Origin: Thermoleophilia bacterium
GTDB lineage: Bacteria > Actinomycetota > Thermoleophilia > Gaiellales > SKUG01
Reading direction: 5' to 3'
Length of the DNA stretch: 9,050 nt
NCBI GenBank assembly: GCA_020438525.1
Contig: JAGQUL010000198.1
Location: forward strand, 1-9,050
In this document: positions 41-8,856 of the stretch, in pieces
Layout of the letters: every line of letters starts with the position of its first letter
Position numbering within the stretch: position 1 is the first letter of the stretch
Notes under the pieces: model-generated
The model's database searches: none
Seen by the model: the letters and a program-made list of their open reading frames with translations, nothing else
What the model was told of the DNA's origin: nothing
Made by a program: the position numbers and the translations under genes

Positions 41-391
41 ATGGCCGAAGCACCCGAACAGCCACGCGACGAGCAGCCCGACGAGCGACGAGACGCCGCC
101 GCACGAAGCGGCCACCTCGACCGCATGGCGCGCGACGCCGAGGATGCGACCTTCGGCGAGTCCGAGAGCTCGCGCGTCCGGGTTCCGGGCGTTCTCAGCG
201 GCGACCTCGGGCCCAAGGGGAAGGTCTCCGCGCAGATGCGCGACATGTCGCGCAGCGAGCGCGATCGCTACGGCGAGGTGCCGCCCGGCACCGTCGCCTC
301 GCGCGGCGGGCTGCTCGTGCTGCTGCCGATGCTCGCGATCGCGCTGGGGCTGATCGCGCTCGTGGTGCTGCTCGGGTGGTTGCTCGCGTGA
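41..391 (+). CDS. small C-terminally anchored membrane protein, unknown function
   Basis: A 116-residue protein that I do not recognise as a named family. Residues 1-88 are hydrophilic and highly charged, rich in D/E/R, with little sign of a fold apart from a segment around 45-62 (VRVPGVLSGDLGPKGKV). Residues 91-115 form one strongly hydrophobic helix (GLLVLLPMLAIALG...) ending at the C-terminus, preceded by Arg88. This is a tail-anchor layout with the charged part probably cytoplasmic. I chose the ATG at 41 over the in-frame GTG at 5 because a TAGAAT -10 box sits 8 bases before it and the added residues would overlap the presumed promoter. Its TGA stop overlaps the likely GTG start of the aldolase-like gene (GTGA, 388-391), so the two are probably translationally coupled. 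It could tether or regulate the two downstream barrel proteins at the membrane; that is inference. Confidence 0.75.
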   Translation: MAEAPEQPRDEQPDERRDAAARSGHLDRMARDAEDATFGESESSRVRVPGVLSGDLGPKGKVSAQMRDMSRSERDRYGEVPPGTVASRGGLLVLLPMLAIALGLIALVVLLGWLLA

Positions 392-1092
392 GCGGCATAT
401 CCGTCGCGAAGAGCCTGGAGCTGCACCTGCTGCAGCCGCTCGTCACGCGCGAGGAAGTGCAGGCCGCGTGCCGGCGTGCCGCCGACGCGCACCTCGCGTC
501 GGTCTGCGTGTGGCCCGTCCACGTGCGGCTCGCCGCCGAGGTGCTGGCGGGCAGCGACACCCGCATTCGCGCCGCGATCGGATTTCCATACGGGCAGGAC
601 CACGTCGACGTGCGCGTCGCCGCGTGCGACCGGGCGATCGACGACGGCGCACACGAGCTCGCGGTGATGCTCGACCAGTCGCTCGTCGGCCCACGGGCGC
701 TCGTCGGGGAGCTCGACCGGCTGCTCGGGCATGCCTGGTGGTCGTCGCTCAGCTCCGCGCGCGGTCGTGGCGAGCTCACGATCGTGCTCGAGACCACGAT
801 GATGAATCCGGAGACGCTGACTCCCGCGCTCGAGCGGCTGCGTGAATCGCCGGCAGGGTTCCTTCAGACCGGTTCCGGGCATCAGCCGCGAGCAGTCACC
901 GAGCAGCACGTTCGCGAGCTGCGCGAGCTGCTGCCGCACGACATCGCGATCATCGCCGTGGGCGGGATCGCGACCTACGCGGACGCGGAGACGATGCTCG
1001 CCGCGGGCGCCGTGCGGGTCGGCAGCGGCACTGCGGTCGGCATCGTCGACCAGGAACGTCACGCACGCGAGATCAGGCACGGGAGCACATGA
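388..1092 (+). CDS. deoxyribose-phosphate aldolase (DeoC)-like TIM barrel lacking catalytic residues
   Basis: A 234-residue DeoC-family protein of normal length. Recognisable family segments are SVCVWP (Cys40), IGFPYG (64-69), a GAHEL segment (87-91), VLETTMM (133-139), GFLQTGSG (157-164), AVGGIAT (190-196) and RVGSGTAVGI (210-219). Genuine DERA cleaves 2-deoxyribose-5-phosphate through a Schiff-base lysine in a VKTSTG motif, helped by an Asp (E. coli D102) and a second Lys (E. coli K201). Here the Schiff-base position is Gln160, the Asp position is Ala92 and the second Lys position is Ile189. The glycine-rich phosphate-binding loops (G192-G193 and 210-215) remain. It therefore probably cannot perform class I aldolase chemistry, yet it is intact and under codon-bias selection. 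GTG 388 is preferred because it makes a GTGA overlap with the upstream stop; GTG 376 is an alternative start. It overlaps the next gene by ATGA. Confidence 0.85.
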   Translation: MSGISVAKSLELHLLQPLVTREEVQAACRRAADAHLASVCVWPVHVRLAAEVLAGSDTRIRAAIGFPYGQDHVDVRVAACDRAIDDGAHELAVMLDQSLVGPRALVGELDRLLGHAWWSSLSSARGRGELTIVLETTMMNPETLTPALERLRESPAGFLQTGSGHQPRAVTEQHVRELRELLPHDIAIIAVGGIATYADAETMLAAGAVRVGSGTAVGIVDQERHAREIRHGST

Positions 1093-1826
1093 GCGAGGCA
1101 ACCGAGGCAGTGGACGACGGATCGGCGGGAGGCGCGGCACGGCGCTCGCTCACCGAGGTGCTGAGCACGGACGAGCTCTCGTTCATCGTCGAGCCGCGCC
1201 GCGAGGACCGCGGCTCGGTGCAGCGGATCGCCGGCGAGTGCGAGCAGGCGGGCGCGAGCGCGATCAGCCTGTCGGTCGATGCCGGATTCGGGATCGACGA
1301 TCTCGCGCTGGCCCGCTCGGGCTGCACGCTGCCGGTGATCGCGCGCGGGCACGTCGCGGACGCGGGGCGGGTGCAGGCGCTGCGCGACGCCGGCGCGGAT
1401 GCGCTGATGGCACCCGCGCGCTCGTGGATCCGCGAGGCGACCGACGAGCCCCAGGACGGCGTCGAGCCGGCACACGACTCGCTCGCCGGGATCGTTCGTG
1501 CGGCGCACGCCGCCGGCATGGAGGTCGTGCTCACCGTGCACGACGAGGACGAGCTCGGGTTCGCGGTCGACAGCGATGCGGACGTGCTCAACATCGACAA
1601 TCGCGACCAGGACGGGCGCGTCGACGTCGAGCGCACGTTCGACCTGCTCGCCCAGGTCCCGGTCGGTTGGCCGGTGATCAGCGAGTCGATCGCAGCGCTC
1701 GAGCAGGTCGCGAAGCTGCACCGCGCCGGCGTGGATGCGCTGCTGCTCGACGAGGGGCACCTCGACACGGGGCTCCAAAGCGCGTTGGCCGTGTATGCGG
1801 ACGCCTCCGTCGACCAGCACCAGTGA
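1089..1826 (+). CDS. indole-3-glycerol-phosphate synthase (TrpC)-like TIM barrel with altered active site
   Basis: A 245-residue protein with the strand order of IGPS: FIVEPRRED (32-40, family pattern AEIKRASP), QAGASAISLSVD (53-64), LPVIARGHV (81-89, family LPVLRKDF), DAGADALM (100-107), GMEVVLTVHD (143-152, family LVEVHD), NIDNRD (168-173, family GINNRD), VISES (196-200) and LLLDEGHL (218-225, family LIGESLM). True IGPS closes the indole ring of CdRP in tryptophan synthesis using two Lys, two Glu, Asn and Ser. Here the first Glu (E35) and the Ser (S200) are kept. The lysines are Arg37 and Arg86, the second Glu is Thr149, and the Asn is Asp170. The conserved Gly after SES is Ile201 and the C-terminal phosphate-loop Gly is Asp221. 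No other trp gene is nearby. ATG 1089 overlaps the previous stop (ATGA) with GGGAG at 1081-1085. Residues 1-20 are a loose acidic extension. It is likely a paralogue with another role, not the biosynthetic TrpC. Confidence 0.78.
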   Translation: MSEATEAVDDGSAGGAARRSLTEVLSTDELSFIVEPRREDRGSVQRIAGECEQAGASAISLSVDAGFGIDDLALARSGCTLPVIARGHVADAGRVQALRDAGADALMAPARSWIREATDEPQDGVEPAHDSLAGIVRAAHAAGMEVVLTVHDEDELGFAVDSDADVLNIDNRDQDGRVDVERTFDLLAQVPVGWPVISESIAALEQVAKLHRAGVDALLLDEGHLDTGLQSALAVYADASVDQHQ

Positions 1827-5839: not shown

Positions 5840-5913
5840 GGCCACGTAGCCCAATTGGTAGAGGCAGCGGATTCAAAACCCGCCCAGTGTCGGTTCGAGT
5901 CCGACCGTGGCTA
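5840..5913 (+). tRNA. tRNA-Leu(CAA) with a short (class I) variable arm
   Basis: A 74-base cloverleaf. Acceptor 5840-5846 pairs with 5906-5912 (six Watson-Crick pairs plus a G1-U72 wobble), discriminator A at 5913. The D stem is G10-C25, C11-G24, C12-G23 with a C13/A22 mismatch and a loop holding G18G19. The anticodon stem GCGGA/CCCGC has an A31/C39 mismatch at the loop, and the loop UUCAAAA gives anticodon CAA at 5874-5876 (reads UUG, Leu). The variable region is only 5 bases (CCAGU), T stem GUCGG/CCGAC with loop UUCGAGU. U8-A14 and A15-U48 tertiary pairs are available. CCA is not encoded. Bacterial tRNA-Leu normally has a long variable arm, so the short one is notable; A73 and the 3-bp D stem are otherwise leucine-like. 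Confidence 0.88.
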
Positions 5914-7581: not shown

Positions 7582-8856
7582 ATGAGGAGCAGGGGCATCC
7601 AACAGGCATTTCGGGCAGCGGTGCTGCTCACGGCAGCGGCGCTCGTCGCCGTGGGCTGTGGCGGCGGCGGCAGCGGCAGCGGCAGCGGTGGCAGCGGCGG
7701 TGGCAAGCCGCTCACGAAGGTCGTGATCGCATCCGACCTGCCGCTCACCGGCAGCGCACGCGCGCAGACCGAGACGATGGTCCAGGCGATCCAGATGGCC
7801 GTGGACGAGGTCAACGGCAAGGCCGCCGGCGTGAAGCTCGAGTACCGCAGCATGGACGACGCCACCGCCCAGGCCGGCAAGTGGGACGAGGCCAAGTGCG
7901 CCGACAACATGAACGAGCTCGCCCAGGACGAGAGCGTCGTGGTGGTGATCGGCCCGATGAACTCCGGCTGCGCTCAGGTGCAGATCAAGACCGCCAACAC
8001 CGCAGGTCTTGCGATCGTAAGCCCCGCCGCCACCAAGATCGGACTCACCAAGTCGGGTGACGAGCCGGGCGAGCCCGACAAGTACTACCCCAACGGCACC
8101 CGCAACTTCCTGCGCGTTGTGCCGGCCGACGACCTGCAGGCCTCGGCCGCGGCGCTCTGGGCGTCCGAGCTCGGCGTGAAGAAGGCGTTCGTGATCAACG
8201 ACAAGGAGACCTACGGCAAGGGCCTTGCCGACGCGTTCGAGGGGGCCGCAGAGGACAAGGGCATCGAGGTGGTGGCGAACGAGGGCATCGATCCGCTCGC
8301 ATCCAACTACCGACCGCTGATCCCGAAGATCACCGGCGACAAGGCCGACATGGTGTTCTTCGGCGGCATCACCCAGAACAACGCCGGACAGGTGCTCAAG
8401 GACCTGCGCGCCGCCTCCAAGGACATCATCTTCATGGGCCCCGACGGCATCTTCGAGGACGCGTTCATCGAGGCCGCCGGCGATTCCGGCGACGGCGCCT
8501 ACGCAACCTTCGGCGGCATCCCGCCCGAGAAGCTCCAGGGCAAGGGCAAGCAGTTCATCGATGCATTCACCAAGGCGCACGGCGCGCCGCAGGCGTACAC
8601 CGCGTACGCGTACGACGCGGCGACGGTCGCGATCGCCGCGATCACCCGCTGTGCGGAGGGCGACGGAGTCACGCGCGCATGCGTGCTCGAGGAGCTGTTC
8701 AAGACCAGGGATCACGAGGGCGCGCTCGGCACGTTCTCGATCACCGACACGGGCGACACGACCCTGTCGCAGCTGAGTGGCGTGAAGGTCTCGAAGGGCG
8801 CGTGGGCGTTCGACCGAACGCTCGACGTGTCCGGTGGTGCAGGGGGCGACGCATGA
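7582..8856 (+). CDS. branched-chain amino acid-type (HAAT) ABC transporter substrate-binding lipoprotein
   Basis: A 424-residue LivJ/LivK-type periplasmic-binding-fold-I protein. Residues 1-25 are a lipoprotein signal with basic start (MRSRGIQQAFR) and hydrophobic core; the lipobox is AVGC with lipidated Cys26. A Gly/Ser linker (27-42) follows, then the binding domain: KVVIASDLPLTG, QAIQMAVDEVNGKAAG, VVVVIGPMNSGCAQ (lobe I ligand loop), AIVSPAAT, FLRVVPADDLQ, AFVINDKETYGKGLADAFE, DMVFFGGITQNNAGQ and ALGTFSITDTGDT. It would sit on the outer face of the membrane and deliver branched-chain amino acids, or other amides or small acids, to the permeases. Ligand specificity cannot be read reliably. 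The ATG at 7582 is the only one giving a proper basic signal region, though no Shine-Dalgarno precedes it. It overlaps the permease gene by ATGA. Confidence 0.93.
   Translation: MRSRGIQQAFRAAVLLTAAALVAVGCGGGGSGSGSGGSGGGKPLTKVVIASDLPLTGSARAQTETMVQAIQMAVDEVNGKAAGVKLEYRSMDDATAQAGKWDEAKCADNMNELAQDESVVVVIGPMNSGCAQVQIKTANTAGLAIVSPAATKIGLTKSGDEPGEPDKYYPNGTRNFLRVVPADDLQASAAALWASELGVKKAFVINDKETYGKGLADAFEGAAEDKGIEVVANEGIDPLASNYRPLIPKITGDKADMVFFGGITQNNAGQVLKDLRAASKDIIFMGPDGIFEDAFIEAAGDSGDGAYATFGGIPPEKLQGKGKQFIDAFTKAHGAPQAYTAYAYDAATVAIAAITRCAEGDGVTRACVLEELFKTRDHEGALGTFSITDTGDTTLSQLSGVKVSKGAWAFDRTLDVSGGAGGDA
8841..8846 (+). promoter_or_regulatory. ribosome binding site (AGGGGG) of the permease gene
   Basis: AGGGGG lies 6 bases before the ATG at 8853, inside the end of the binding-protein gene, and supports that start and translational coupling. 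Confidence 0.5.

Follow-up and report, generated by a model that had tools for sequence, protein, structure and literature searches.

The window, by which we mean the whole stretch of 9,050 nucleotides analysed, carries close to its first letter three overlapping genes, coding for a small protein with a predicted membrane anchor and for two TIM barrels, one akin to deoxyribose-phosphate aldolase (DERA, the product of deoC) and the other to indole-3-glycerol phosphate synthase (IGPS, the product of trpC). The features are as follows:

41..391, + strand: small protein gene (ATG at 41, stop at 391, 116 aa), with a charged N-terminal part, conserved PGVLSGDLGPKG and YGEVPPGTV, and a C-terminal hydrophobic anchor
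311..388, + strand: predicted C-terminal membrane anchor of the small protein (residues 91-116), from hydropathy
388..391, + strand: GTGA overlap of 4 bases, small protein stop and DeoC-like start
388..1092, + strand: DeoC-like TIM barrel gene (GTG at 388, stop at 1092, 234 aa), without the catalytic lysines
865..867, + strand: Q160 codon of the DeoC-like barrel, at the position of the Schiff-base lysine (DERA K167)
1089..1092, + strand: ATGA overlap of 4 bases, DeoC-like stop and TrpC-like start
1089..1826, + strand: TrpC-like TIM barrel gene (ATG at 1089, stop at 1826, 245 aa), with the IGPS active site replaced
1344..1346, + strand: R86 codon of the TrpC-like barrel, at the position of IGPS K110
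1596..1604, + strand: D170-N171-R172 codons of the TrpC-like barrel, against N-N-R in IGPS (N180 to D)
1749..1760, + strand: D221-E222-G223-H224 codons of the TrpC-like barrel, against the phosphate-loop G-E-x-L of IGPS
1866-2509: RHH antitoxin-like and PIN toxin-like pair, downstream of the three-gene unit
7582-8856: periplasmic binding protein gene

Both overlaps lie exactly where the sequence-only reading had placed them, and the coding bias on which it relied is present in all three genes, since the G+C content at third codon positions is 0.89 in the small protein, 0.88 in the DeoC-like and 0.91 in the TrpC-like gene; this codon-position G+C supports the three reading frames as genes. As just 40 bases precede the first of them, the operon may start outside the window.

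Beyond the RHH-PIN pair, the window contains a YkuD L,D-transpeptidase gene and a phosphofructokinase gene on the other strand, an SseB-like gene, a tRNA and a diacylglycerol kinase-like gene, and none of these downstream neighbours points to the function of the three-gene unit. Two inverted repeats are found where the TrpC-like gene stops and the RHH antitoxin-like gene starts, one with arms at 1824-1842 and 1843-1861 (84% complementary), the other with arms at 1860-1868 and 1872-1880 (perfect); those in 1824-1880 are plausible operators of the toxin-antitoxin pair. The search of the window for RNA elements returned the tRNA at 5840-5913 only, which is called tRNA-Leu(CAA) and is just 74 nt long; as a rule, leucine tRNAs have a long variable arm, and thus this one is either unusual or miscalled in its identity. 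Near the end, an open frame from 8853 overlaps the gene of the periplasmic binding protein and leaves the window; its 66 residues match no Pfam family.

The small protein matches nothing in Pfam or NCBIfam, and its family comprises 10 listed members, the window's own included, with invariant residues in the part that precedes the C-terminal hydrophobic segment. This segment is the single strongly hydrophobic one in the window's protein (Kyte-Doolittle mean of 3.02 over 19 residues from residue 91), and by the same measure it reaches 2.81-3.35 in the nine other listed members, which do not exceed 0.62 outside their C-terminal 35 residues. The C-terminal anchor proposed earlier is therefore predicted, by hydropathy, in 10/10 members, and the N-terminal part would lie inside the cell.

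In the databases, the TrpC-like protein has at least 84 close relatives (P0001-P0084, its own entry included) with an identity of at least 43%, followed by a gap down to canonical IGPS at 38% or less, this family being drawn from the 120 listed of 336 matches; the relatives of the DeoC-like protein number 65 (P0121-P0185, again with its own) among 68 matches. An organism is named for 12 relatives among the matches listed (6 TrpC-like, 4 DeoC-like and 2 of the small protein), and 12/12 are metagenome-assembled genomes of Thermoleophilia, so that uncultured lineages may be the only ones to have the three-gene unit, as is weakly suggested by these twelve, none of them a cultivated isolate. The search of genome contigs with the single DeoC-like protein as query gave 20 loci, none titled Thermoleophilia: 19 are titled Verrucomicrobiota or Bacteroidota, and the remaining one (L009) 'bacterium'. 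The viral contigs, searched with two alignments (A1 and A2), yielded no relatives, and matches to the TrpC-like protein were found in 12 plasmid records, all under 60% identity, the 8 listed of these being 26-32% identical to it and 5 of the 8 annotated as trpC.

The DeoC-like barrel is related to DERA (TIGR00126; PDB 6d33, 8qps, 1jcl) over nearly its whole length (profile E-value 7e-43 to 6d33), and the VCVxP and IGFPxG framework is common to both, as are the GG and GS motifs of the phosphate cradle, which in the window are G192-G193 and G212-S213, the GG being kept in 64/65 rows of the family. However, its family is a separate clade with 100/100 support, and its score lies under the cut-offs both of TIGR00126 (102.8 bits, cut-off 117.3) and of the Pfam DeoC model PF01791 (12.3 bits, cut-off 23.8), which is likewise unmatched in the six relatives scanned. 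The position of the Schiff-base lysine, which we take to be K167 in the numbering of the E. coli enzyme, is Lys in 22/22 canonical rows, whereas in the DeoC-like family it is Gln in 64/65, as in the window, and Arg in one. The second catalytic lysine (K201) is Ile in the window and Val, Ile or Thr in 60/65 rows; the five that keep it (P0178, P0179, P0180, P0183 and P0184) all branch near the base of the family, whose fine branching order is unsure because of long branches and modest supports. D102, present in 22/22 canonical rows, is found in 0/65 DeoC-like ones, and 61 of these have Ala, the residue of the window; a canonical Asn has given way to D96 and a Phe to H165. Seven histidines are conserved in at least 80% of 63 rows, and since K8 is the only lysine conserved to that extent, Schiff-base chemistry is very unlikely in this family.

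The sole Pfam family over its cut-off in the DeoC-like protein is that of dihydroorotate dehydrogenase (PF01180), with 36.1 bits (cut-off 27) at residues 152-220, that is, in strands 6-8. The six relatives scanned give 29.4, 24.8, 18.9, 19.8, 13.9 and none, so that one of them passes; as a precomputed domain it is recorded in 49/65 listed relatives. Four canonical DERAs give 15.8, 15.0, 13.4 and none (0/4 over the cut-off), so that the DeoC-like proteins tend to score above the canonical ones, in keeping with a retained phosphate site, although among the basal DeoC-like members, two of the three scanned score no higher than these. The match covers about 70 residues, whereas the barrel overall aligns with DERA; even so, the resemblance of strands 6-8 to an FMN/phosphate cradle makes a phosphate-bearing ligand or FMN a fair guess for the DeoC-like barrel.

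The TrpC-like barrel shows kinship to IGPS (PDB 6y88, 1a53) along the whole barrel (profile E-value 2e-28 to 6y88) and passes Pfam PF00218 with 60.3 bits against a cut-off of 27, and thus the affinities first read from the sequence hold for both barrels; nevertheless, it fails the equivalog cut-offs of NCBIfam for TrpC, its best score being 69.8 bits against 260. Its family, 83 rows in a FastTree tree with P0119 as root, forms a single clade (support 0.745). The equivalents of IGPS E51, E210 and S211 are kept (E35 in 83/83, E199 in 83/83 and S200 in 82/83 rows), and that of K53 is Lys in 68/83 and Arg in 15/83, the window among the latter. In contrast, K110, whose numbering and role as general acid we presume, is Lys in 15/15 canonical rows and Arg (R86) in 83/83 of the family; E159, standard in 15/15 canonical rows, is Glu in none of the 83 and Ser or Thr in 79, with Thr in the window; and N180, Asn in 15/15, is Asp (D170) in 83/83. 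Of the phosphate-loop glycines, both Gly in 15/15 canonical rows, G212 is a gap and G233 is Asp (D221) in 83/83, and a new histidine, H224, stands in 83/83 where the 15 canonical rows have Leu or Ile. The stretch after strand 4 has a median of 22 residues in the family and 8 in canonical rows.

The loss of hallmark catalytic residues, claimed earlier for the two proteins of the window, is thus family-wide, with a Schiff-base Lys in 0/65 DeoC-like rows and K110, N180 and G233 replaced in 83/83 TrpC-like rows. The same cannot be said of the ligand then guessed, a phosphorylated sugar or an indole-like metabolite: the phosphate-cradle motifs are indeed kept in the DeoC-like barrel (GG, GS), but in the TrpC-like one the absence of one phosphate-loop Gly and the change of the next to Asp argue against indole-glycerol-phosphate or any other phosphate ester at that site. 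That the genes are ordinary, if divergent, deoC and trpC brought together by chance would agree with the fold kinship to DERA and IGPS and with the source annotations of the relatives, which read deoxyribose-phosphate aldolase and indole-3-glycerol phosphate synthase; yet with the Schiff-base Lys, K110, E159, N180 and the phosphate Gly gone family-wide, and the scores under the NCBIfam cut-offs, it is very improbable.

The claim that both barrels are full length needs correction for the TrpC-like protein of the window, which falls somewhat short, being without an N-terminal stretch (an estimated 30 residues or so) that most relatives possess, and without most of the beta1-alpha1 loop (around 1089-1200). 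The first is a trait of a subclade of 8 rows (support 0.998), and the loop is short in 14/83 rows, namely these 8 and 6 further ones; in the window's subclade, moreover, K37 is Arg and D87 is Gly, and taken together these changes look like a further loosening, a point against a re-tooled pair of enzymes. The trimmed N-terminus and loop are what could be said in favour of pseudogenes undergoing decay, or of frames that are open by chance, an idea that is hardly credible in the face of open frames, codon bias and relatives that share 37-83% identity and have invariant residues. The altered residues are rather fixed traits of the families, with Arg, Asp and Asp for K110, N180 and G233 in 83/83 TrpC-like rows and no Schiff-base lysine in 65/65 DeoC-like ones.

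Do the three families travel together? As a measure of linkage, the exact size in bases of the longest contig of each entry was compared between families. Between the 84 TrpC-like and 65 DeoC-like entries there are 28 identical sizes, with 0 between the DeoC-like family and canonical IGPS (35 entries with a size), while a null in which contig sizes were jittered by up to 10% gave a mean of 0.68 and a maximum of 5 in 2000 trials. Of the 9 non-self entries of the small protein, 7 have a contig size in common with at least one barrel and 4 with both; 7369, 3828, 19045 and 13946 are sizes present in each of the three families. On contigs of at least 4000 bases a partner was found for 18/30 DeoC-like and 18/39 TrpC-like entries, although an unmatched size says little, there being one longest contig per entry and only among the matches listed. 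The three-gene composition described for the window therefore recurs in relatives, as neighbourhood on shared contigs, which is weaker than strict adjacency. The basal DeoC-like P0183 and P0184 are linked to the TrpC-like P0083 and P0065, which carry the new signature, and the pairing would accordingly seem to be of about the same age as the two families. The pairwise distances of the two barrels also correlate (r=0.78, 29 pairs; permutation maximum 0.49), a result that shared ancestry alone would give.

It is in the distribution of the changes that the two barrels differ. Positions fixed but different, taken in the TrpC-like case as those fixed in at least 90% both of the family (80 rows) and of canonical IGPS (32 rows) with differing residues, number 11, of which 9 lie on the catalytic face (hypergeometric p=4e-6), the sets of catalytic-face residues for both barrels being our own choice. 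In the DeoC-like barrel the fixed differences were expected on this face as well, yet 3/18 are there, which is chance level (p=0.68), with an outgroup that is mostly Verrucomicrobiota and thereby of inflated uniformity; accordingly, this barrel may be a scaffold or a regulator. Such a contrast (9/11 against 3/18) would fit one active barrel with a non-catalytic partner, either a TrpC-like enzyme with a DeoC-like partner or the reverse, as would the greater overall conservation of the DeoC-like family (mean distance 0.32 against 0.41, 29 pairs), which an interface-rich partner might show. We regard this arrangement as improbable, however, because seven residues at the DeoC-like mouth (W42, H45, D96, H97, Q160, H165 and Q166) are each conserved in at least 57/63 rows.

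A more serious candidate, doubtful though it is, would be a pseudoenzyme module without any catalysis, which would sense a ligand or serve as a scaffold, binding metabolites or proteins and regulating at the membrane. It would account for the absence of the Schiff-base lysine and D102 from the DeoC-like family and the loss of the second lysine in 60/65, for changes not clustered on the catalytic face, for the conservation of H115, W118 and R125, which lie at a distance from the strand ends, and for the predicted anchor of the small protein. A precedent could be PDB 3qyq and 4eiv, which we take to be a Toxoplasma protein of DeoC fold that has departed from DERA function; it is distant in sequence from the DeoC-like barrel (profile E-value 9e-11), and we know of no TrpC-like partner for it. 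On the other hand, the searches of Pfam and NCBIfam revealed no effector or sensor domain in the three proteins, and the mouth residues of the TrpC-like barrel are new and invariant (83/83), which is more typical of a site that has been re-used. It is this invariant new mouth that inclines us towards a re-tooled, active enzyme and away from a dead scaffold.

In summary, we tentatively prefer, at somewhat short of an even chance, the view that this is a lineage-specific unit of three genes of uncultured Thermoleophilia, encoding a re-functionalised pair of enzymes and not dead scaffolds. Judging from sequence, both barrels probably do a job so far undescribed, and that they do it as catalysts we infer. 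The mechanism of such a re-functionalised pair could be: (i) two old metabolic barrels, one DERA-like and one IGPS-like, would have been re-tooled and have stayed linked to a small protein with a membrane anchor; (ii) each would still be a binder of small molecules, and the two would work together in one pathway, perhaps as a complex; (iii) with no Schiff-base chemistry, the GG/GS cradle of the DeoC-like barrel would accommodate a phosphorylated ligand or cofactor; (iv) the TrpC-like barrel would act on a ligand with no phosphate at the old site, by means of E35, K/R37, R86, D170, E199, D221 and H224; and (v) the small protein would bring the pair to the membrane. A more specific and unlikely version is a two-barrel enzyme recruited to the membrane, with a reaction special to uncultured Thermoleophilia, in which a class I aldolase fold would have exchanged its Schiff-base lysine for a mouth free of lysine and rich in histidine (H13, H45, H97, H165; E11, D96, E135) that would bind a metal, or its GG/GS cradle a phosphate cofactor of FMN type, coupled to the TrpC-like barrel, where the phosphate loop of IGPS would have turned into an acidic/His site (D170, D221, H224); in the window, which has Q97, a metal site would have to manage without H97.

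No paper on a pairing of DeoC-like and TrpC-like proteins was found in the literature searched, by titles and the beginnings of abstracts. The conserved signature proteins of Thermoleophilia (PMC6544083) are limited to this class, as the unit may be, and the words aldolase and indole are absent from the main text of that article, a comparison by wording.

As the relatives are annotated as aldolase and synthase, metabolic reconstructions for uncultured Thermoleophilia may assign to these barrels steps that they probably cannot perform. Finally, should the re-tooling prove to be real chemistry, those basal members of the DeoC-like family that have one lysine would record the stepwise exit of a Schiff-base aldolase fold from that chemistry.
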